Made by a program: the position numbers and the translations under genes. A stretch of 23,708 bases of DNA from a virus. The number at the start of each line of letters is the position of its first letter. The first letter of the stretch is position 1. Where the stretch lies: IMG/VR virus record IMGVR_UViG_3300026130_000023, positions 1 through 23,708 of that record; one strand, 5' to 3'. Under the pieces are notes generated by a model, which worked only from the letters and a program-made list of their open reading frames with translations, had not been told where the DNA came from and made no database searches. This document shows positions 13,766 to 21,301 of this stretch, piece after piece.

Positions 13766-15001
13766 TTAGGTAGCAAAACTGAAAGGAACATGAGCAACTG
13801 GCTTCCTAATAGGCATTTCATAGGCTATCACATAGCTTGTCGCATCATTCTGGTGGTCAAATCCAGTACTCTTATCTGGCTCTCCGCTTTTGCCGTAGGC
13901 TTGTTGCTCTAGGCATTCTGCTACTCTCTTGCAAGTCTTGTGGTTAATTCTTAGCAACCCCTTCTCTAATGCTGAGTTAGTGGCCAAGATTCGATCCTTA
14001 ACTGCGGGGTTCGATCTATTCACTCTAACAGAAAAGCGCGCCTGCTCTAATAGTGCAATATCTGAGACTGATGCGTTTACAGTCTTCCTCGCTGCACCGC
14101 TTGCATCTGGATAAATATAAATCTTGTGACCCTTGCTTTGGTATCGATCCTGAATGACAGAGATCATATCCCTAGTGTCAAATAGATCAACAAGCTCTGC
14201 TACAACATGGAATACGTCATCTCGCTTAACCATGATGGTAGCCGCTTGGTGCATGACGTTGAAATCGCATCCGATATATAACGGCTCTTTGGGTTCTATC
14301 CCTTCATCTGACCAACAAATGTCTCGATTATACGAGCAATAGACTGTCCCTGAATTTAAGTTTACAAACTCGCCCATTAAATAAGCGCGCAATAAATTAG
14401 CGGGATAGGTTTCCTGCAATGATTCTATATAACCATCTGGCAGATGTTTGTTGCTCATAGTGGGCGCTTGAATCAACTCATACATAGGGGATTCGTTCTT
14501 CTTCCATTGCTCATAAACGAATCTGAATCCTTCAGGGGTTGTCCCTACACAGCAAGAGTTAATGCCTGTTGGCTTTGGCTGACGATTCCTTGCAATGATC
14601 TGCTCCCACGCTCGCTTTGCTTTAGGCGTTGGCAGAGTGTCTAATTCGTCCACAAACGAATCGCCTACTTCATAACCAATGATTCGATCTGGATTATCTA
14701 GTGTACGGAAGATGATCCGCTTGCCATTAGCGATAATGACGTTTTGACCCTTGTTAATATGATATTGAACGCCTGTGCCCTTTAGCATTTCATCAAAGCG
14801 TGGATAACAAATATCAGCAATCAACCCATAGGTGGGCATGTAGAATGCCATATCCCTAGCATCACCAAATAGTTTGCTCAATGCTCTTAGGATTAACGCA
14901 TGGGTTTTCCCTGATCCAAACCCGCCTACAAACGCGGGGAATCTTGCAGTCGAATTGACAAACTTTGCTTGTGGTATCGATGCATCCGCTTCAAGTATCA
15001 T
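13766..15001 (-). CDS. terL: Terminase large subunit
   Basis: 411 residues. ATPase: Walker A GGFGSGKT at 26-33, Walker B SFVDELD at 115-121 with catalytic Glu119, and coupling motif VGTTPEG at 152-158. Nuclease: RNase H-like fold beginning YIGCDFNVM with Asp246, further acidic residues near 269 and 299 (YPDASG), and the final Asp386 in DHQNDATSY. The enzyme cleaves concatemeric phage DNA and pumps it into the prohead through the portal. ATG 15001 shares ATGA with the small subunit's stop. All key catalytic residues are present, so it should be functional. Length is in the normal 400-500 residue range. Confidence 0.97.
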   Translation of the reverse strand: MILEADASIPQAKFVNSTARFPAFVGGFGSGKTHALILRALSKLFGDARDMAFYMPTYGLIADICYPRFDEMLKGTGVQYHINKGQNVIIANGKRIIFRTLDNPDRIIGYEVGDSFVDELDTLPTPKAKRAWEQIIARNRQPKPTGINSCCVGTTPEGFRFVYEQWKKNESPMYELIQAPTMSNKHLPDGYIESLQETYPANLLRAYLMGEFVNLNSGTVYCSYNRDICWSDEGIEPKEPLYIGCDFNVMHQAATIMVKRDDVFHVVAELVDLFDTRDMISVIQDRYQSKGHKIYIYPDASGAARKTVNASVSDIALLEQARFSVRVNRSNPAVKDRILATNSALEKGLLRINHKTCKRVAECLEQQAYGKSGEPDKSTGFDHQNDATSYVIAYEMPIRKPVAHVPFSFAT

Positions 15002-15372
15002 TCGTCATCTTCCGATACGACTCTAAATGCAGTGATATTCATGCCGCCCTGAATCGTTGCCTGATCTGATTGTCCAAGCCAGTTCTTGCCTAACCATATC
15101 TGCATTGATACGTTTCCGGCCTGAGCAGTAGCATACTGCATTCGTCTTAGGCTAATTTTGCCTGCTGAACTCTTTTGCTTGATATAATCCGCAAAACCGC
15201 AGTCGTGATCCTCATGACATCGCCTATTTAGAGTGTCATAACTGATCTCCATAAAACTAGCGATCTCTTCTCCAGTGCAATGCAGGCCGCATAATTTTTC
15301 GACTTCTTTCCAATCGACAACTATCTTCGGTCGTCCACCTTTAGGACCCGATGGGATTGTTTCTGCCATCAT
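14998..15372 (-). CDS. terS: Terminase small subunit
   Basis: 124 residues. The N-terminus is GPKGGRPKIVVDWKEVEKLC, then a helix-turn-helix (TGEEIASFMEISYDTLNRRCH) of the kind that binds the packaging site, a linker and an oligomerisation helix (GKISLRRMQYATAQAGNVSMQ, IWLGKNWLGQSDQ). The phrase 'GN...m.iwlGK..LGQ.d' is characteristic of TerS proteins. GGAG lies four bases upstream of ATG 15372 (a second ATG follows at once). It recognises phage DNA and loads TerL. The start lies inside the 3' end of the IbrB-like gene by 32 nt, an unusually long overlap that ties the two genes together. Confidence 0.92.
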   Translation of the reverse strand: MMAETIPSGPKGGRPKIVVDWKEVEKLCGLHCTGEEIASFMEISYDTLNRRCHEDHDCGFADYIKQKSSAGKISLRRMQYATAQAGNVSMQIWLGKNWLGQSDQATIQGGMNITAFRVVSEDDE

Positions 15373-16006
15373 TGTACTCCTTCTTAATCTTAACCATGCT
15401 GCGAGTAACCCAAGATCGTTTATATTCTGTATCAGCGAATAGCTTGCTGAATCCAGTAATATGCTTCAATCGTAATAGCTCTTCGGGTTCCATACCTAGA
15501 TGGTTGCAGATGTCTTGATCTGCCCATCCGTTATGCAATAGCTCAAATACCATATTCGACATGCCATCAACTGAGTGGCTTCCTCTCGCCCTATTGTGAC
15601 GAACGGTTGCTGCCATTCTCTCGTTAATATCCTTATTGATAACAACAACTGGCAATCTGCCATGGTTGCGCTCTCGAATATCCTCATTGGACTTACAGGT
15701 GAAATACCTATGGAATCCATCAACGATAATGTATTTGTCTATTTCCTCGTCATAGATAGTCACGACAGGCTGTGTGTAGCCATCATGCTTGATTGAGGTG
15801 TATAGGAGTTTCATTTCTTTAGATGCTACAGAATTCGGGTTGTAATCATTCGCCTGAACTTTATTCACATCTACCCATCTAACGTAATCGACAGGCTGAG
15901 TCCCTATGGGAGACAGCTTGTGCATTGCGTCTTTGATCTCCTCGATCTTTACTATCCTTTCTTCCTCACCGAGGTTGGCAAGATAGTCGATGATGTTATC
16001 CAACAT
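15341..16006 (-). CDS. ibrB: IbrB-like ParB/sulfiredoxin-domain protein
   Basis: 221 residues. Residues ~40-125 carry the ParB/Srx-type fold: VDVNKVQANDYNPNSVASKEM, the nucleotide-handling motif DGFHRY (GxxR-like) and PVVVINKD. Residues ~130-200 have RMAATVRHNRARGSHSVDGMS, NGWADQDICNHLGMEPEELL and RLKHITG, a helix-turn-helix region that I recognise from IbrB-type proteins. IbrB was described together with IbrA in E. coli, where the pair influenced expression of immunoglobulin-binding proteins; the biochemical activity is unknown. Here it directly follows the IbrA-like gene with an 11-nt overlap, supporting the pairing. ParB-like folds can be nucleases or nucleotide hydrolases, so it could also serve DNA modification. 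A ribosome site AGAGGA precedes ATG 16006. Confidence 0.82.
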   Translation of the reverse strand: MLDNIIDYLANLGEEERIVKIEEIKDAMHKLSPIGTQPVDYVRWVDVNKVQANDYNPNSVASKEMKLLYTSIKHDGYTQPVVTIYDEEIDKYIIVDGFHRYFTCKSNEDIRERNHGRLPVVVINKDINERMAATVRHNRARGSHSVDGMSNMVFELLHNGWADQDICNHLGMEPEELLRLKHITGFSKLFADTEYKRSWVTRSMVKIKKEYNDGRNNPIGS

Positions 16007-17168
16007 TTATATATTCCTCTGGAATCCAGTCTAAGCAATTAGACCGCTTGATAAACTCAATATCTTTAGGCTCACCCCGCCTCCAACGTCTAAAAGTAAT
16101 TGCATAAGGCTGCTGTTCAAAATTGTCGCACTTGGTGAAATCCACATCATTAGCAAGAATGGTTGCAACGTGGACTCGATGCATCTTATCGATATTTCTA
16201 ATAAGGCCATACACATCGTCCATTCGCTCAAATCTTGCACGCATCTTCTCCTGATACTCAGTATCGGTGATTAGATTTACTAACAAGTGATCTCTATATT
16301 CCTTCCATGAATCAAACATGAAGGGGAGGTCTTTTGCTTGAAACATATCCTGCTTAGATAAGTGCCTTGCCTGATTAATCCCTCCCAACCTATCGGTTAA
16401 TTTATTCCACGTTTCTCGTTCGATCTCTTGAAGATAAAACAACTGATGGATTGCTGTCTCATGGTGCAAATTAGATATACGCATTTTGCTTGCGGGAACG
16501 CCATACTGATAAAAATAATCGTAGGCTTTGGCATATGACCAATCGTTATCATGGATCGCCTTCCAAATATCGGTATAACTCCAATCGTATAATGGATAGA
16601 AATTATACTGATCCTTGTTCATCTTCTTGCCCCAGGTCACCCACTTATAAGTTGCGCCTGTAGTTAAGCCACTCATTCGTGCGGGGGATTCTTCTCCCCT
16701 TACGCCTGCTAAGACAGCTAATGGACCATCCCAATGATGTTTATAGATAGCGGGGAATAATGCGTGAAAACGATCCGTCCCATAGATATTCTCTGTAATG
16801 GCATAAGGCACTTTGTCTCGCATCCATTGACCGCCTTCCTGCCAACAGTTTAAATAATGCTCTATATTGCTTGTGGCATTAGTTAATCGAATGGGCATCT
16901 GAAACCACATGGGTGTGACACGATCATCCTCCATGACAGTCTCTACATAATCGATGACGTTTTGCCATTCGGCCTCTTGGTCAAGGAATAACACCGGAAG
17001 AGGTAGTCGGCCTTTCTCTTCTGCGACTATCAATGCCATATTGAGTGTGGCTGTTGAATCCTTGCCGCCTGAAAATGACACGGCCACATTCTCGAATTCG
17101 TCAAATATGAATCTGATACGATCTAGTGCCGCATCAAACACATTCTGCTTCAGATACATCTTGCTCAT
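15996..17168 (-). CDS. ibrA: IbrA-like PP-loop ATPase (PAPS reductase family, DUF3440-like tail)
   Basis: 390 residues. The PP-loop SFSGGKDST is at 31-39, followed by LPVLFLDQEAEW and the second motif LAGVRGEESPARM at 153-165, standard for PAPS reductase/adenine nucleotide alpha hydrolase folds. The distinct motif Y.LYDWSYTDIWKAI near 192-205 fits. Residues ~205-390 (YGVPASKMRISNLHHE, AITFRRWRRGEPKDIEF) form a DUF3440-like C-terminal region as in IbrA. No ECGLH-type catalytic cysteine motif is seen, so it is not a normal assimilatory PAPS reductase. Relatives such as DndC activate sulfur chemistry on DNA, which makes thiol or phosphorothioate-like modification conceivable (inference). Overlaps the methyltransferase-like gene before it (ATGA) and the IbrB-like gene after it. 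Confidence 0.88.
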   Translation of the reverse strand: MSKMYLKQNVFDAALDRIRFIFDEFENVAVSFSGGKDSTATLNMALIVAEEKGRLPLPVLFLDQEAEWQNVIDYVETVMEDDRVTPMWFQMPIRLTNATSNIEHYLNCWQEGGQWMRDKVPYAITENIYGTDRFHALFPAIYKHHWDGPLAVLAGVRGEESPARMSGLTTGATYKWVTWGKKMNKDQYNFYPLYDWSYTDIWKAIHDNDWSYAKAYDYFYQYGVPASKMRISNLHHETAIHQLFYLQEIERETWNKLTDRLGGINQARHLSKQDMFQAKDLPFMFDSWKEYRDHLLVNLITDTEYQEKMRARFERMDDVYGLIRNIDKMHRVHVATILANDVDFTKCDNFEQQPYAITFRRWRRGEPKDIEFIKRSNCLDWIPEEYINVG

Positions 17169-17791
17169 AATAGCGGTCTTATATTATCAATGTTCTTGTG
17201 TAGATATTTCAGAATAGTGATGCAATTGCCATCGTAATCAGCACCAACATAGGTGTTCCCTTCCTTCGCATTAATGAATGACAACAGCTTAGTGCCATTG
17301 CCACAACAAGGGTCGCCCATGACTGAATATCTTTCCCCCAACCATTTGACCACTTCATTAGTGGTTGAACCTTCTGGCTCGCACCCCCAAGATAGCATTA
17401 ACTCCCTGTTTTTATTGAGAATTACCTGCTTGGTGTAATCTGGGTTATGCAATCGCTTTGCTAGGACTTTAGGCGCAATAACTACTCGTGGAATATTTAA
17501 GTCGTTCCATGCTGCTGCAAAAGACTCTAGGAACTCTTCATAGGTGCAATCTGACCCTGCCTTTTCGTTGAACACTTTAATGCCTAATGGGAATGGCGGT
17601 TCTGAATAAAACACATCGCACATATCAAAATGGATCGACAGCCCATGTCTTATATCTGCCTGCATCCCAACACACTTATCATGCACAAATGATTCGGTTG
17701 GCCTTAGCGCCCTGATCTTTGCCTTATTGGACTTCAATGCAGAGTTGTATAGGTCGGAAATGTTTTCGATCTTCCCATCGACTATGATCAT
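17165..17791 (-). CDS. Permuted DNA methyltransferase-like protein (motif IV SEPPF)
   Basis: 208 residues from the ATG at 17791, chosen because it overlaps the previous TGA and has GGAG upstream; the track start at 17809 lies deeper in the neighbour. Motif IV-like DVFYSEPPFPLG is at 59-70, followed by TYEEFLESFAAAWNDL, and a SAM-binding-like GDPCCGNGTKLLSFI at 159-173 with YVGADYD after it. Order IV then I is that of beta-class (permuted) N6-adenine or N4-cytosine methyltransferases. The replacement of the usual D/N-PP-Y/W by S-E-P-P-F and the Cys-Cys in motif I are odd and could mean altered chemistry or a non-methyl donor. Lies between the glycosyltransferase and the PP-loop gene with 4-nt overlaps. 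Target base unknown. Confidence 0.7.
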   Translation of the reverse strand: MIIVDGKIENISDLYNSALKSNKAKIRALRPTESFVHDKCVGMQADIRHGLSIHFDMCDVFYSEPPFPLGIKVFNEKAGSDCTYEEFLESFAAAWNDLNIPRVVIAPKVLAKRLHNPDYTKQVILNKNRELMLSWGCEPEGSTTNEVVKWLGERYSVMGDPCCGNGTKLLSFINAKEGNTYVGADYDGNCITILKYLHKNIDNIRPLL

Positions 17792-18465
17792 TTTGCAAAC
17801 TCCATCCAATCCTGTTTGTGAGTATGCTTTTTGAGTTTCAATTCTGAATAGTCATCTGATTTAGTCATAAGGGTTCTAGTGTCCCTGACTAAATTTCCGA
17901 TCTTAGCGGGAGTGCCTAGTGTCGATTTAATATGCAAGTTATGGGACGCAATGCTTTTGGATAGGATGGCTATTGACCAGTTCTTGCGTTGGGCTGCGAA
18001 TCTCACCCTTACTTCATCGTGGTATTTAGCCTTTGATTCATCAATGTGTTTTGACTCTTCAATGATGTCTTTAGCGAATAAAGGATTAATCATGTAACAA
18101 ACAGCCCACATGAAATAATCGCCAACTGTTCCGTTATACTCGCCATCCTGATTGATTTTGTCATACAGGGCTTGTGGCGGGGTAAACATGCTGATCATGC
18201 CAAACTTACTGAGATGCGATTCTATGACTTTTATGTGATGATCCCACATCTCTTTATCGATAAGTGCATCGTCTTGCAGAACGATTCCTGCTTCCCCTGA
18301 CTCCGCTATTTGCCTAATTGCTCTCTCGGTATTCCACCATGGTCCATTGTGTTCAAAATCGATAAGCACTTTGACGTTGTTTATGCATTCGCAGTACGAG
18401 AGCTTGTCACGCAAACATTTTGTGTGATTCATTCGCTCTGGAACGGTGATAATAAATACGTTCAT
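17788..18465 (-). CDS. Putative GT25-like glycosyltransferase
   Basis: 225 residues. The N-terminus MNVFIITVPERMNHTKCLRDK resembles the opening of GT25-type glycosyltransferases (a strand, then R and a helix). The central IVLQDDALID at 61-70 supplies a DD pair in the place of the usual EDD metal/sugar-nucleotide motif. The later HDEVRVRFAAQRKNWSIAILS at 149-169 followed by HNLHIKSTLG is consistent with the acceptor-side half. No transmembrane segment is evident, so it is cytoplasmic. A sugar transferase placed between two DNA methyltransferase-like genes suggests it glycosylates modified DNA rather than lipopolysaccharide (inference). Start ATG 18465 overlaps the methyltransferase stop by 4 nt (ATGA). 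Confidence 0.62.
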   Translation of the reverse strand: MNVFIITVPERMNHTKCLRDKLSYCECINNVKVLIDFEHNGPWWNTERAIRQIAESGEAGIVLQDDALIDKEMWDHHIKVIESHLSKFGMISMFTPPQALYDKINQDGEYNGTVGDYFMWAVCYMINPLFAKDIIEESKHIDESKAKYHDEVRVRFAAQRKNWSIAILSKSIASHNLHIKSTLGTPAKIGNLVRDTRTLMTKSDDYSELKLKKHTHKQDWMEFAK

Positions 18466-19016
18466 GCTTCATCCAAGCCAAACTTGGCCATTAGTTTCGC
18501 TGCTCTGCCTTTGTTTAGCTCGGCTGCTACTACTTCGCATCCTTTAGAGTGCATGATGAATGCGTGGACGCCATGCCCTGCAAACGGCTCAAATATCCGC
18601 TTAGGACGATGGTGTTCAATAGCGTGGTGCAAAATATCGAATCCCTTGCTATCTAATACCAGTGGCATATCAGAATTGAACTGGATAATGCAATAAGGCT
18701 TGCCATTAGTTTGAGTGCTTCGGATAGTCCGATTAAATACATGGCCGTTTCTTTCTGCGTGGTGGATAACACGCTCGTGCCCTTGAATGCTGTATTCGAT
18801 AAACATGGGGACTTTTGGGGACATCTTAAATAGCTTGTTTAATATTCCGTCAATGCCTGACGATTGTGATAGGCCGCCAACTTTCTTTGAGGCAGTGTCA
18901 AAGAATTTAACCATCCTATCTTCCCATGGTGGATCGGTGAAGACCATGTCGCAACCATCTGCATAGTTATCTGGCAGACTCATAATGTCCGCCACTTTAA
19001 ATTTAACTATTGGCAT
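18462..19016 (-). CDS. DNA methyltransferase, permuted (motif IV DPPW)
   Basis: 184 residues from ATG 19016, which has GGAAG upstream; the longer ORF start at 19133 lies deep in the neighbouring gene and is unlikely. Motif IV is DMVFTDPPWEDRM at 23-35, the DPPW form typical of N6-adenine methyltransferases of the MT-A70-like group. Motif I appears late as RIFEPFAGHGVHAFIMHSKG at 140-159 with VVAAELN after it, giving order IV to I (beta/permuted class). Between them, PMFIEYSIQGHERVIHHAER and YCIIQFNSD fit the connecting region. It would methylate DNA using SAM. It forms a module with the upstream 102-residue protein and ParB-like protein; ParB domains are often linked to methylases in phages. 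Confidence 0.8.
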   Translation of the reverse strand: MPIVKFKVADIMSLPDNYADGCDMVFTDPPWEDRMVKFFDTASKKVGGLSQSSGIDGILNKLFKMSPKVPMFIEYSIQGHERVIHHAERNGHVFNRTIRSTQTNGKPYCIIQFNSDMPLVLDSKGFDILHHAIEHHRPKRIFEPFAGHGVHAFIMHSKGCEVVAAELNKGRAAKLMAKFGLDEA

Positions 19017-19311
19017 AATCTTCCATCCTGATTCGCTCTGCGTGAATGACGTATTTCCTGTTGATAAGGATCGTTTCATCAACGGGCGAACCCATAGTCC
19101 AATATTTCCACTCCCCCGCATAAAAGGTGACATAGCTAGTGTTATAAAATAACTCGTCTATGCCGTGCTTTCTTAGCGCGATAACTGCTGCGTCAAACTC
19201 TGCATCGTCCCAATGCTTTCTTAGGGTGTAATAGTGGGGGTTGTGGGCGAGAGTCTTGGCAAAACGATAGTCGTGCGCCTCTAACGCTTCCTGCAATTCT
19301 TTAATGGTCAT
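19003..19311 (-). CDS. Conserved hypothetical protein (102 aa) between ParB and methyltransferase
   Basis: 102 residues from ATG 19311, chosen since it overlaps the ParB-like stop as ATGA; the longer start at 19347 lies within that gene. The N-terminal part (MTIKELQEALEAHDYRFAKTL) is helical, followed by NPHYYTLRKHWDDAEFDAAVI, HGIDELFYNTSYVTFYAGE, then KYWTMGSPVDETILINRKYV near 78-97. The 'yWTMG.Pv..T.liNr' block resembles a short phage protein often seen beside DNA-modification genes, but I cannot name a family. The tight overlaps make it part of the modification cassette. It overlaps the methyltransferase start by 14 nt. Function unknown; a partner subunit or small nucleotide-handling protein is possible. 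Confidence 0.72.
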   Translation of the reverse strand: MTIKELQEALEAHDYRFAKTLAHNPHYYTLRKHWDDAEFDAAVIALRKHGIDELFYNTSYVTFYAGEWKYWTMGSPVDETILINRKYVIHAERIRMEDYANS

Positions 19312-19856
19312 GATTGAATCGCAAACTCTTCGCCACAATGTGGGCACATCACTTCGCTGACTTTCTGGACAGATACGGAGTTGTTTAATTTATCCGCTGC
19401 CTTTTCCAAGTCCTGCTCTGTAACATCTCTGTTATCGACTCTTGGCTCGTATTCTGGATCGAAATTAGTGTTGCCGATATCTAGGTCAAGATTAAAGCCA
19501 GTGAAATTAATATCGAAATCCAACTTCATGATCTCGTCAAATTCCAACTCTAGCTTTTCCCAATCCCATGTCGACTCTTCCCCGATCTTGTTGTCGGCTA
19601 TTCGATACGCTTTCTTTTGCGCTTCTGTCAGACCGCCTAATACGATGGTGGGGACTTCAGTTAATCCAAGGTGGGTGGCTGCTGCGAAACGCCCGTGGCC
19701 TGCAATGATGATGTTGCTGTCGTCAATTAGGATAGGGTTTGTAAAGCCGAACTCTTGAATGGATTTTGCAAGCATCTCGACTTGCTGTTCATTGTGGTTG
19801 CGAGTGTTATTTTCATAGGCTGAAAGCTCGCCTACTTGCTTAGGTATGATTTGCAT
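19308..19856 (-). CDS. ParB-like nuclease domain protein with C-terminal CxxC
   Basis: 182 residues. The N-terminal domain has the standard ParB/Srx pattern: LSAYENNTRNHNEQQVEMLAK, SIQEFGFTNPILIDD, the motif IIIAGHGRFAAATHLGL near 50-66 and EVPTIVLGGLTEAQKKAYRIA. This form (often called prophage ParB, fused or adjacent to DNA methylases) could bind or nick DNA. The C-terminal tail ends VMCPHCGEEF, a single CxxC pair that could bind zinc with a partner or after dimerisation. A GGAGAC ribosome site precedes ATG 19856. It begins the overlapping cassette that runs to the terminase genes. Partner methylase is likely the DPPW enzyme two genes on (inference from order). Confidence 0.85.
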   Translation of the reverse strand: MQIIPKQVGELSAYENNTRNHNEQQVEMLAKSIQEFGFTNPILIDDSNIIIAGHGRFAAATHLGLTEVPTIVLGGLTEAQKKAYRIADNKIGEESTWDWEKLELEFDEIMKLDFDINFTGFNLDLDIGNTNFDPEYEPRVDNRDVTEQDLEKAADKLNNSVSVQKVSEVMCPHCGEEFAIQS

Positions 19857-20814: not shown

Positions 20815-21243
20815 CTAGTCGTTGAATCGTGCAATAAGCGCACATTGTGGTGATTGGTTTCTTAATTCGGTAATTGCATAGTAATGGTTGCTCCAAAATT
20901 CTACCCCTTCCTTGTCATTCAGCCCATAGGCGCGAAAAGATAGGTGGCTTGCTATCCATTGCTCAAGTGCTATGCCGATAGAGTCATGGGTTAGCTCTGA
21001 AGTTGAAAATCCGCTGTCGGAGTGAATCTCGAAATTCTTATCGTGCGTAGGTCGCATATAGAAACCATCGTCATTGACGCATAGCTCCCAAACGCCTCCC
21101 CGATACTTGCCGCTAGTCCATCTTTCATAGACGTGATAGTGCAAAATCTCCCAATCGATCATGTAGCGCAAGGGGATGTTCTTCCCAATGAAGTCGGAAA
21201 ATTTTTCGTCTGTTAATACTGTGGGTTTTGATTCATTAGTCAT
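20815..21243 (-). CDS. Antirestriction protein, ArdB/KlcA-like
   Basis: 142 residues from ATG 21243 (leader GAGGAGAGACTAACC); the frame extends to 21282 but that start has no leader. Features seen: YMIDWEILHYHVYERWTSG, then YRGGVWELCVNDDGFYMRP, a middle with FEIHSDSGFSTSELTHDSIG, IALEQWIASHLSF, and an end YYAITELRNQSPQCALIARFN. The order (Y.GG.We, gfyM.P, lt.ds.GI.l, l.......hp....i) is the KlcA/ArdB antirestriction domain. Such proteins inhibit type I restriction enzymes without being DNA mimics. It is driven by its own promoter (21273-21301) and is the clearest host-takeover gene in this block. Family call is from motif pattern only. Confidence 0.72.
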   Translation of the reverse strand: MTNESKPTVLTDEKFSDFIGKNIPLRYMIDWEILHYHVYERWTSGKYRGGVWELCVNDDGFYMRPTHDKNFEIHSDSGFSTSELTHDSIGIALEQWIASHLSFRAYGLNDKEGVEFWSNHYYAITELRNQSPQCALIARFND

Positions 21244-21272
21244 GGTTAGTCTCTCCTCTAGTCCATGCATTA

Positions 21273-21301
21273 ATCGTCTCAAAATGGCGTATAAAAGTCA
21301 A
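21273..21301 (-). promoter_or_regulatory. Promoter copy 3 (TTGACT, N14, TGAGACGAT)
   Basis: The minus strand reads TTGACT (-35, 21296-21301), 14 nt, then TGA GACGAT (extended -10, hexamer 21273-21278), a 17-nt spacer. The same arrangement occurs twice more (22016-22044, 23452-23480) with different spacer bases. It lies 30 nt before the start of the antirestriction gene with only a short untranslated leader. Confidence 0.7.

Follow-up and report, generated by a model that had tools for sequence, protein, structure and literature searches.

In the known hypermodification pathways for thymidine and cytosine, a base hydroxymethylated by an enzyme of the thymidylate synthase family (TS-family) is subsequently tailored by a kinase, a glycosyltransferase (GT) or other enzymes. 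DNA phosphorothioation (DndCDE, with DndB) relies on a PP-loop ATPase and a ParB-like protein, and Mom of phage Mu is a DNA modifier with a GNAT fold. The IbrA and IbrB proteins of Escherichia coli are named co-activators of prophage gene expression. Moreover, pathways based on C5-methylcytosine comprise a phage TET with a GT, as well as CmoX/CmoY with ParBc genes (PMC12783734). Here we describe a locus of the virus record IMGVR_UViG_3300026130_000023, whose whole stretch of 23,708 bases is referred to as the window. The locus consists of seven minus-strand open reading frames (ORFs) at positions 15341-19856, which run into the terminase genes terS and terL and encode, in the order of transcription, a ParB-like protein (ParB1), a protein of 102 amino acids (aa), a methyltransferase with a DPPW motif (DPPW), a GT, a methyltransferase relative with a SEPPF motif (SEPPF), IbrA and IbrB, followed by TerS and TerL. 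It is probable that these genes represent a modular phage cassette for nucleic-acid hypermodification with tailoring steps that can be swapped, the most likely target being the DNA of the phage itself.

A fixed core and an exchangeable block

A first-pass annotation had described seven overlapping genes next to the terminase genes, and all of them were found again. The overlaps from ParB1 to TerL amount to 4, 14, 4, 4, 4, 11, 32, and 4 nucleotides (nt), respectively, when the best-supported starts of DPPW (19016) and SEPPF (17791) are used, which agrees with the range of 4 to 32 nt given there, including the 32 nt shared by IbrB and TerS. The longest ORF of DPPW starts at 19133 and encodes 223 aa, a shorter one starts at 19016 and encodes 184 aa. 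The protein is taken as 184 aa, since its homologs start at MPIVKFK and since a sequence resembling a ribosome-binding site (ggatggaag) precedes the start at 19016, but not that at 19133. Overlapping junctions are typical for the family, as overlaps were counted at 835 of the 1029 junctions between neighboring cassette genes of related loci (not dereplicated).

A scan of viral contigs with the IbrA alignment revealed at least 517 relatives, and both IbrA and IbrB are widespread in phages (215 and 218 records, respectively). The same neighbors are shared by 88 loci, namely ParB1, the 102-aa protein, one to three further enzymes, IbrA and IbrB, often TerS, and then TerL; some phages place ParB1 after IbrB instead. 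The further enzymes belong to few families, which are GT, SEPPF, DPPW, GNAT, a second GT-like type and an oxygenase-like protein of ~170 aa. Presence was counted in 55 non-redundant IbrA-seeded loci, chosen with room upstream, of which 54 contain IbrB, 53 ParB1, 42 the 102-aa protein, 40 TerL, and 47 at least one gene of the tailoring toolkit. Furthermore, reciprocal scans were seeded by the profiles of SEPPF, DPPW, and GT to avoid circularity, and IbrA was sought within 3.5 kb on the same strand. It was found in 32/34, 71/79, and 76/80 of these loci, respectively, and therefore the three families live almost only in the IbrA system within the reach of the scan. The rare co-occurrence of the genes, which the first-pass annotation had named as the outcome that would speak against it, was not observed, and we are highly confident that the cassette is real and general. 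The seven genes, originally regarded as one set, indeed recur as a system next to terminase, but the unit is built differently: ParB1 and IbrA-IbrB are fixed, and an exchangeable block, consisting of the 102-aa protein and one to three tailoring enzymes, lies between them.

Five pairs of phages with IbrA proteins at least 98.7% identical contain different blocks. GT and SEPPF in locus L021 correspond to GT and the oxygenase-like protein in L022, and the latter combination also faces DPPW and SEPPF in the pairs L058/L054 and L040/L038 as well as GNAT and DPPW in the pairs L223/L048 and L056/L187 (in each case with GT and the oxygenase-like protein in the locus named first). In all five pairs the DNA homology (85-98%) breaks off where ParB1 ends or within the gene of the 102-aa protein and sets in again at most about 15 nt from the first base of IbrA, so that between L021 and L022 the replaced segment comprises positions 4414-5997 of L021. 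Chimeric assembly as the source of these swaps was ruled out, because several of the alleles were independently assembled on separate contigs (L022/L218 100%, L038/L116 99.8%, and L040/L039 99.7% identical). Across an IbrA tree of 117 loci the block content changes at least 65 times, compared to an average of 81 and a minimum of 75 changes in 100 label shuffles, which shows some inheritance, but very frequent block exchange. IbrA and IbrB of the window are 71-75% identical to those of L012, L018, and L021, whereas ParB1 (about 40%) and TerL (23-29%) are divergent, and thus unrelated phages exchange the IbrAB core as well.

No locus combines any two of the oxygenase-like protein, SEPPF and GNAT, either among the 117 loci or among the 55 IbrA-seeded loci, for which mutual exclusion has p-values of 0.05 (SEPPF/GNAT), 0.026 (SEPPF/oxygenase-like), and 0.005 (GNAT/oxygenase-like). 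In the latter set the oxygenase-like gene is accompanied by a GT in 16 of 16 cases. A pattern of this kind would be expected if the three were alternative final steps of a single pathway. The strong negative association of GT and DPPW in the 117-locus set is partly a sampling effect and weaker in the IbrA-seeded loci, and the window is one of two loci among the 117 with the triple of DPPW, GT, and SEPPF. One could argue that IbrA-IbrB serve in regulation or host takeover and that the tailoring enzymes, unrelated to them, hitch-hike in a hot spot of recombination next to terminase, as the region is clearly a recombination site and several phages carry the IbrAB pair without tailoring genes. However, hitch-hikers would be random, whereas the slot families are few and near-exclusive to the locus, and their genes overlap translationally, follow the exclusion rule and form fusions with one another and with ParB1, which makes this explanation improbable compared to a modification cassette.

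The proteins of the cassette

The positions of the cassette genes and of the two terminase genes are given in Table 1. The ParB-like, IbrA-like PP-loop and IbrB-like ParB assignments of the first-pass annotation are all upheld by profile matches. IbrA exceeds the Pfam cut-offs of PAPS_reduct (59.3 vs. 22.5 bits, E 6.5e-16) and DUF3440 (28.1 vs. 25 bits), matches phrog_2302 (2e-77) and has its PP-loop motif SGGKDS kept across 86 relatives. Its position in the PAPS reductase superfamily, together with a weak match to the DndC profile, could point to a sulfur-based, phosphorothioate-like modification or to true assimilatory sulfate reduction by a viral CysH, and a possible sulfur step had initially been proposed besides a methyl and a sugar step. 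Enzymes for methylation and glycosylation are indeed present. The sulfur step, however, did not hold: the alignment of the 86 IbrA sequences contains no invariant cysteine, 12 of them contain at most one cysteine and 3 lack cysteine entirely, and IbrA of the window, with cysteines at 108, 347, and 378 only, is devoid of the catalytic-cysteine ECG motif of CysH. The lack of invariant cysteines therefore speaks against sulfur chemistry of the DndC and CysH type. Moreover, the scores against the profiles of DndC (17.3 bits, cut-off 290.4) and CysH (17.1 bits, cut-off 165.1) are far too low, and the DndC profile stays below its cut-off in 18 of 19 related records. Sulfur chemistry was thus rejected for IbrA, and this explanation is largely refuted and very unlikely. 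As the best sequence match in the PDB is CysD (1zun), a subunit of sulfate adenylyltransferase, an adenylating role would be the simplest alternative.

Table 1. Cassette genes and adjacent terminase genes in the window.
Gene	Position	Strand	Predicted protein	Basis
ParB1	19308..19856	-	ParB/sulfiredoxin-type, C-terminal CPxC half zinc ribbon; first cassette gene; fixed	182 aa; phrog_620 E 9e-56
102-aa protein (unk102)	19003..19311	-	small conserved domain; part of the swappable block	alignment; AlphaFold pLDDT 92
DPPW	18462..19016	-	putative amino-methyltransferase of beta-class type, permuted (motif IV before motif I)	profile vs. DpnA, CcrM, MboIIA
GT	17788..18465	-	putative glycosyltransferase, GT-A fold, GT25-like	phrog_854 E 1.3e-6; structure model
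SEPPF	17165..17791	-	methyltransferase relative, D-to-E in motif IV, EPP[FWY]	hhalign to DPPW family
IbrA	15996..17168	-	PP-loop ATPase, PAPS reductase/CysD superfamily, DUF3440; fixed core	Pfam, phrog_2302
IbrB	15341..16006	-	ParB/sulfiredoxin-type, DGFHR motif; fixed core	phrog_2159 E 8e-74
TerS	14998..15372	-	neighbor outside the enzyme set; overlaps IbrB by 32 nt	phrog_309 E 2.9e-6, phrog_606 2e-4
TerL	13766..15001	-	neighbor	Terminase_6N/6C

The second core protein, IbrB, is slightly below the cut-off of Pfam ParB_N (24.2 vs. 26.3) and weakly matches the ADP-dependent serine kinase SerK (4e-4), and the motifs DGFHR and RHNRARG are near-invariant among 75 relatives. In ParB1 the residues C171, P172, and C174 are kept in 99% of 73 relatives.

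The tailoring proteins are more difficult to recognize, as Pfam and NCBIfam give no useful recognition of the GT or of either methyltransferase-like protein. The DPPW profile matches DpnA, CcrM, and MboIIA in the PDB, and the DPPW motif is present in 88 of 88 distinct relatives. Judged by its sequence, the protein thus qualifies as a relative of the DNA amino-methyltransferases of beta-class type, in line with its original designation. SEPPF, listed before as methyltransferase-like, belongs to a family that is related to the DPPW family (hhalign probability 96.8, E 2.8e-10), but its motif IV, which is EPP[FWY] in 25 of 28 distinct relatives, deviates from the catalytic motif (D/N/S)PP(Y/F/W) of the beta-class-type enzymes. 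Because Glu replaces Asp in this motif, SEPPF probably acts on a substrate other than an ordinary exocyclic amine.

The GT had been called GT25-like. Neither a Glyco_transf_25 nor any other Pfam profile matches the protein of the window, and a relative in Microbacterium phage Hendrix matches PF01755 below the cut-off only. The structure model (mean predicted local distance difference test, pLDDT, 76; final 40 residues unreliable) has its best Foldseek match at 1.6e-7 and aligns with Mimivirus R655 (Z 15.1) and the collagen galactosyltransferase COLGALT1 (Z 14.9), with beta-1,4-galactosyltransferase also in the range of Z 14-15. It has a GT-A fold with a DxD-like motif, and D66 is conserved in 96% of the aligned relatives. 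The label therefore appears fair at the level of the fold, and it does not extend to the profile. Proteins and glycans are the acceptors of GT25-type relatives, and the capsid GT of PBCV-1 is, besides COLGALT1, among the fold neighbors of the GT. Serotype-conversion clusters, in which exchangeable gtr genes alter the O-antigen, also show a fixed/variable architecture. Hence, the cassette might act on proteins, glycans or small molecules, for example in virion glycosylation, change of the host surface or superinfection exclusion. However, no flippase or membrane-anchor family was identified among the recurrent neighbors, DNA-type amino-methyltransferases and ParB domains would be out of place, and the GT is dispensable, being absent from the DPPW+SEPPF and GNAT+DPPW blocks. 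We regard such a function as unlikely and favor nucleic acid as the target.

In the alignment of the 102-aa protein P25, H26, Y70, and N84 are invariant, and its AlphaFold model is confident. No solved relative was found by sequence or by fold (best Z 3.9, unconvincing), which does not demonstrate a new fold, and the fold search gave one match to an unnamed viral protein (E 2.9e-7). In relatives the domain is fused to a C-terminal class I methyltransferase, a GNAT or a GT. The slot protein of ~170 aa has a conserved HxD...H pattern and, by this motif without profile support, looks like an oxygenase of the 2-oxoglutarate/cupin type. When the PDB was searched with profiles of the oxygenase-like protein, the 102-aa protein, GT, and SEPPF, no credible match was obtained. 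The GT of the window alone found nothing in the scan of viral contigs, and the alignment of the 102-aa protein is too variable to seed a scan.

Besides the cassette, the window encodes a head and tail module of a tailed phage with portal, head morphogenesis protein, scaffold, P22-type coat protein, tape measure and J-like tail tip. Upstream of the cassette a 155-aa ORF (20815-21282, minus strand) weakly matches the anti-restriction protein phrog_10132 (E 5e-4), which would fit a defense-evasion region. As for the distribution of IbrA genes, locus L010 (4402-7113) contains two IbrA-type genes, perhaps a duplicated or split core. In L049 and L050 the ORF calling misses IbrA, and the IbrA match of the L050 record contains one in-frame TAG, so that either the gene is broken or TAG stands for an amino acid in this phage. 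A helicase gene precedes IbrA-IbrB, and tailoring enzymes are missing, in Streptococcus phage CHPC1148 (L094 2454-4974, SNF2-type) and in Mycobacterium phage Gaia (L093 3053-5314, annotated helicase). In bacterial and archaeal species genomes, many of them Clostridia, 240 IbrA relatives are present (sampled loci L277-L356), and some of these loci, e.g., L278, L281, and L292, hold toolkit parts and are presumably proviruses.

The probable substrate and a possible order of steps

The explanation that fits the cassette best, and is somewhat favored, is that it modifies phage DNA. This is suggested, indirectly, by the resemblance of DPPW to the DNA adenine methyltransferases DpnA, CcrM, and MboIIA, and by phrog_498, annotated as DNA methyltransferase, which spans both a part similar to ParB1 (N-terminal, E 6e-45) and an adjoining part that matches a DPPW relative (2e-5). 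Furthermore, the natural fusions GT-DPPW (L122 3643-4980), 102aa-GNAT (L194 175-861), 102aa-GT (L139 4165-5004), and GT-ParB1 (L283 2123-3232), together with the position before terminase, point indirectly to DNA. Known gateways to hypermodification were searched in 19 related records, of which the 97.8-kb genome of Hendrix is complete and the others are possibly fragments. Within this set, no gene for a TS-family hydroxymethylase, no C5 cytosine methyltransferase and no TGT/DpdA-type transglycosylase was found, although a very divergent DpdA could escape the search, and Tet/JBP gave one sub-threshold match. Therefore, a cassette acting on DNA would likely use a gateway that differs from the known ones and is post-replicative.

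PP-loop ATPases and methyltransferases are common in tRNA modification, and the PP-loop enzymes TilS, TtcA, and ThiI act on tRNA. It is therefore conceivable that the cassette modifies RNA instead of DNA, e.g., tRNA or mRNA during infection. The class I methyltransferase that is joined to the 102-aa domain weakly matches phrog_4752, a "tRNA methyltransferase," and Hendrix has tRNA genes adjoining the locus as well as a tRNA ligase elsewhere. However, the methyltransferases closest to DPPW act on DNA, ParB domains are joined to DNA methyltransferases, terminase is adjacent, and the rapid exchange of blocks suits an arms race better than the maintenance of tRNA. Thus, RNA is a rather unlikely substrate, and DNA remains preferred.

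Some points weigh against a DNA modification cassette. Neither a GT-A fold nor a GNAT implies DNA as the target, and the divergence of SEPPF and GT is too large to predict their substrates. Moreover, the window is a fragment, so that the genes of the phage beyond the record are unseen. IbrA-IbrB occur without tailoring genes in 8 of the 55 loci, and this arrangement is found in Flavobacterium phages and in Streptococcus phages, where the pair lies beside an SNF2-type helicase. Because of these occurrences and of the name given to E. coli IbrAB, the IbrA-IbrB core may have another role.

Assuming that DNA is modified, we infer the following order of steps and roles. The modification would be placed after replication and before packaging. 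IbrA-IbrB and ParB1 would make a common activated or derivatized position, with IbrA providing ATP-dependent activation and IbrB acting as its nucleotide-dependent, ParB/SerK-like partner. The exchangeable block would then decorate this position, the 102-aa protein possibly serving as adaptor of the decorating enzymes, which in the phage of the window would be the amino-methyltransferase DPPW, the GT-A glycosyltransferase and the altered methyltransferase relative SEPPF. As sister phages swap the whole block for GT+oxygenase-like, GT+GNAT or GNAT+DPPW, near-identical phages might have chemically different DNA. Restriction enzymes and modification-dependent enzymes of the host would be expected to select for such block turnover, which may thus reflect evasion of host defense. 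Tentatively, the cassette could even stand for an undescribed class of hypermodification, in which the gateway is the activation of a canonical base by the PP-loop protein IbrA and its ParB/SerK-like partner, and not hydroxymethylation, C5-methylation or base transglycosylation. Unit-wise swapping of the block would then let populations of one phage differ in DNA chemistry, and much of the viral "cysH" would be this system.

Cultured phages and comparison with described systems

If the proposed function is true, phages alter their DNA chemistry by exchanging a block of two or three enzymes at a fixed site, which would provide naturally isogenic phage pairs in which the selection of DNA modifications by restriction nucleases and modification-dependent nucleases could be tested. 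The altered EPP[FWY] methyltransferase, the oxygenase-like protein, GT, GNAT, and the 102-aa domain would be enzyme families added to the toolkit. Viral cysH (PAPS reductase) has been counted among the globally conserved genes of sulfur cycling (PMC9301287; see also PMC10434257). A large phage family such as IbrA, which is devoid of the catalytic cysteine of CysH and lies in a putative modification cassette, questions the inference of sulfur cycling from viral "cysH."

A direct chemical test is possible with the cultured phage Hendrix, whose host is M. foliorum. It contains two GTs (8e-36, 9e-7), a GNAT (1e-4), IbrA (5e-103), IbrB (3e-80), two ParB1 proteins (2e-37, 3e-43), terminase, and a weakly matching 102-aa domain (2e-4) in a 331-aa product annotated as methyltransferase, with the cassette genes spread over both genome ends. 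Mycobacterium phage Phlyer, which infects M. smegmatis, is limited to the core, with ParB, two small genes, IbrA, IbrB, and terminase. In Arthrobacter phage LiSara, ParB, IbrA, and IbrB are found together with an annotated methyltransferase, terS, and terL. Direct tblastn searches of cultured phages with GT, SEPPF, DPPW, and the 102-aa protein gave nothing, and profiles built from environmental relatives were needed to find their relatives there.

The combination of genes had been considered as not belonging to a described system. Our literature search on IbrA/PAPS reductase and DNA modification likewise found no description, its coverage being incomplete, so that an earlier mention is possible, but the combination is not rare, as its parts are widespread and combined in various ways. 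As far as the literature was searchable, the core with its block-swapping locus was not found described, whereas phage DNA hypermodification is of an already known kind. The IbrA/IbrB pair of E. coli belongs to the same two families and shows the same adjacency. Here, the pair is embedded among ParB1, the 102-aa protein and tailoring enzymes, and nothing observed here points to a regulatory role. DNA phosphorothioation shares the PP-loop ATPase and the ParB-like protein, from which IbrA differs by the missing required cysteines and the low DndC score. Mom of phage Mu can be likened to the exchangeable GNAT by its class; here, in contrast, a GNAT is no constant member of the cassette, and the window has none. 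With the C5-methylcytosine pathways the cassette shares a methyltransferase, further decoration and ParBc-domain neighbors, and differs from them by the results of the search for C5 cytosine methyltransferase and Tet/JBP. Finally, the thymidine and cytosine hypermodification pathways are also multi-enzyme and modular with GT-type steps, but while these start from a TS-family enzyme, which was not found in the 19 related records, a PP-loop protein and ParB proteins form the core of the cassette described here.

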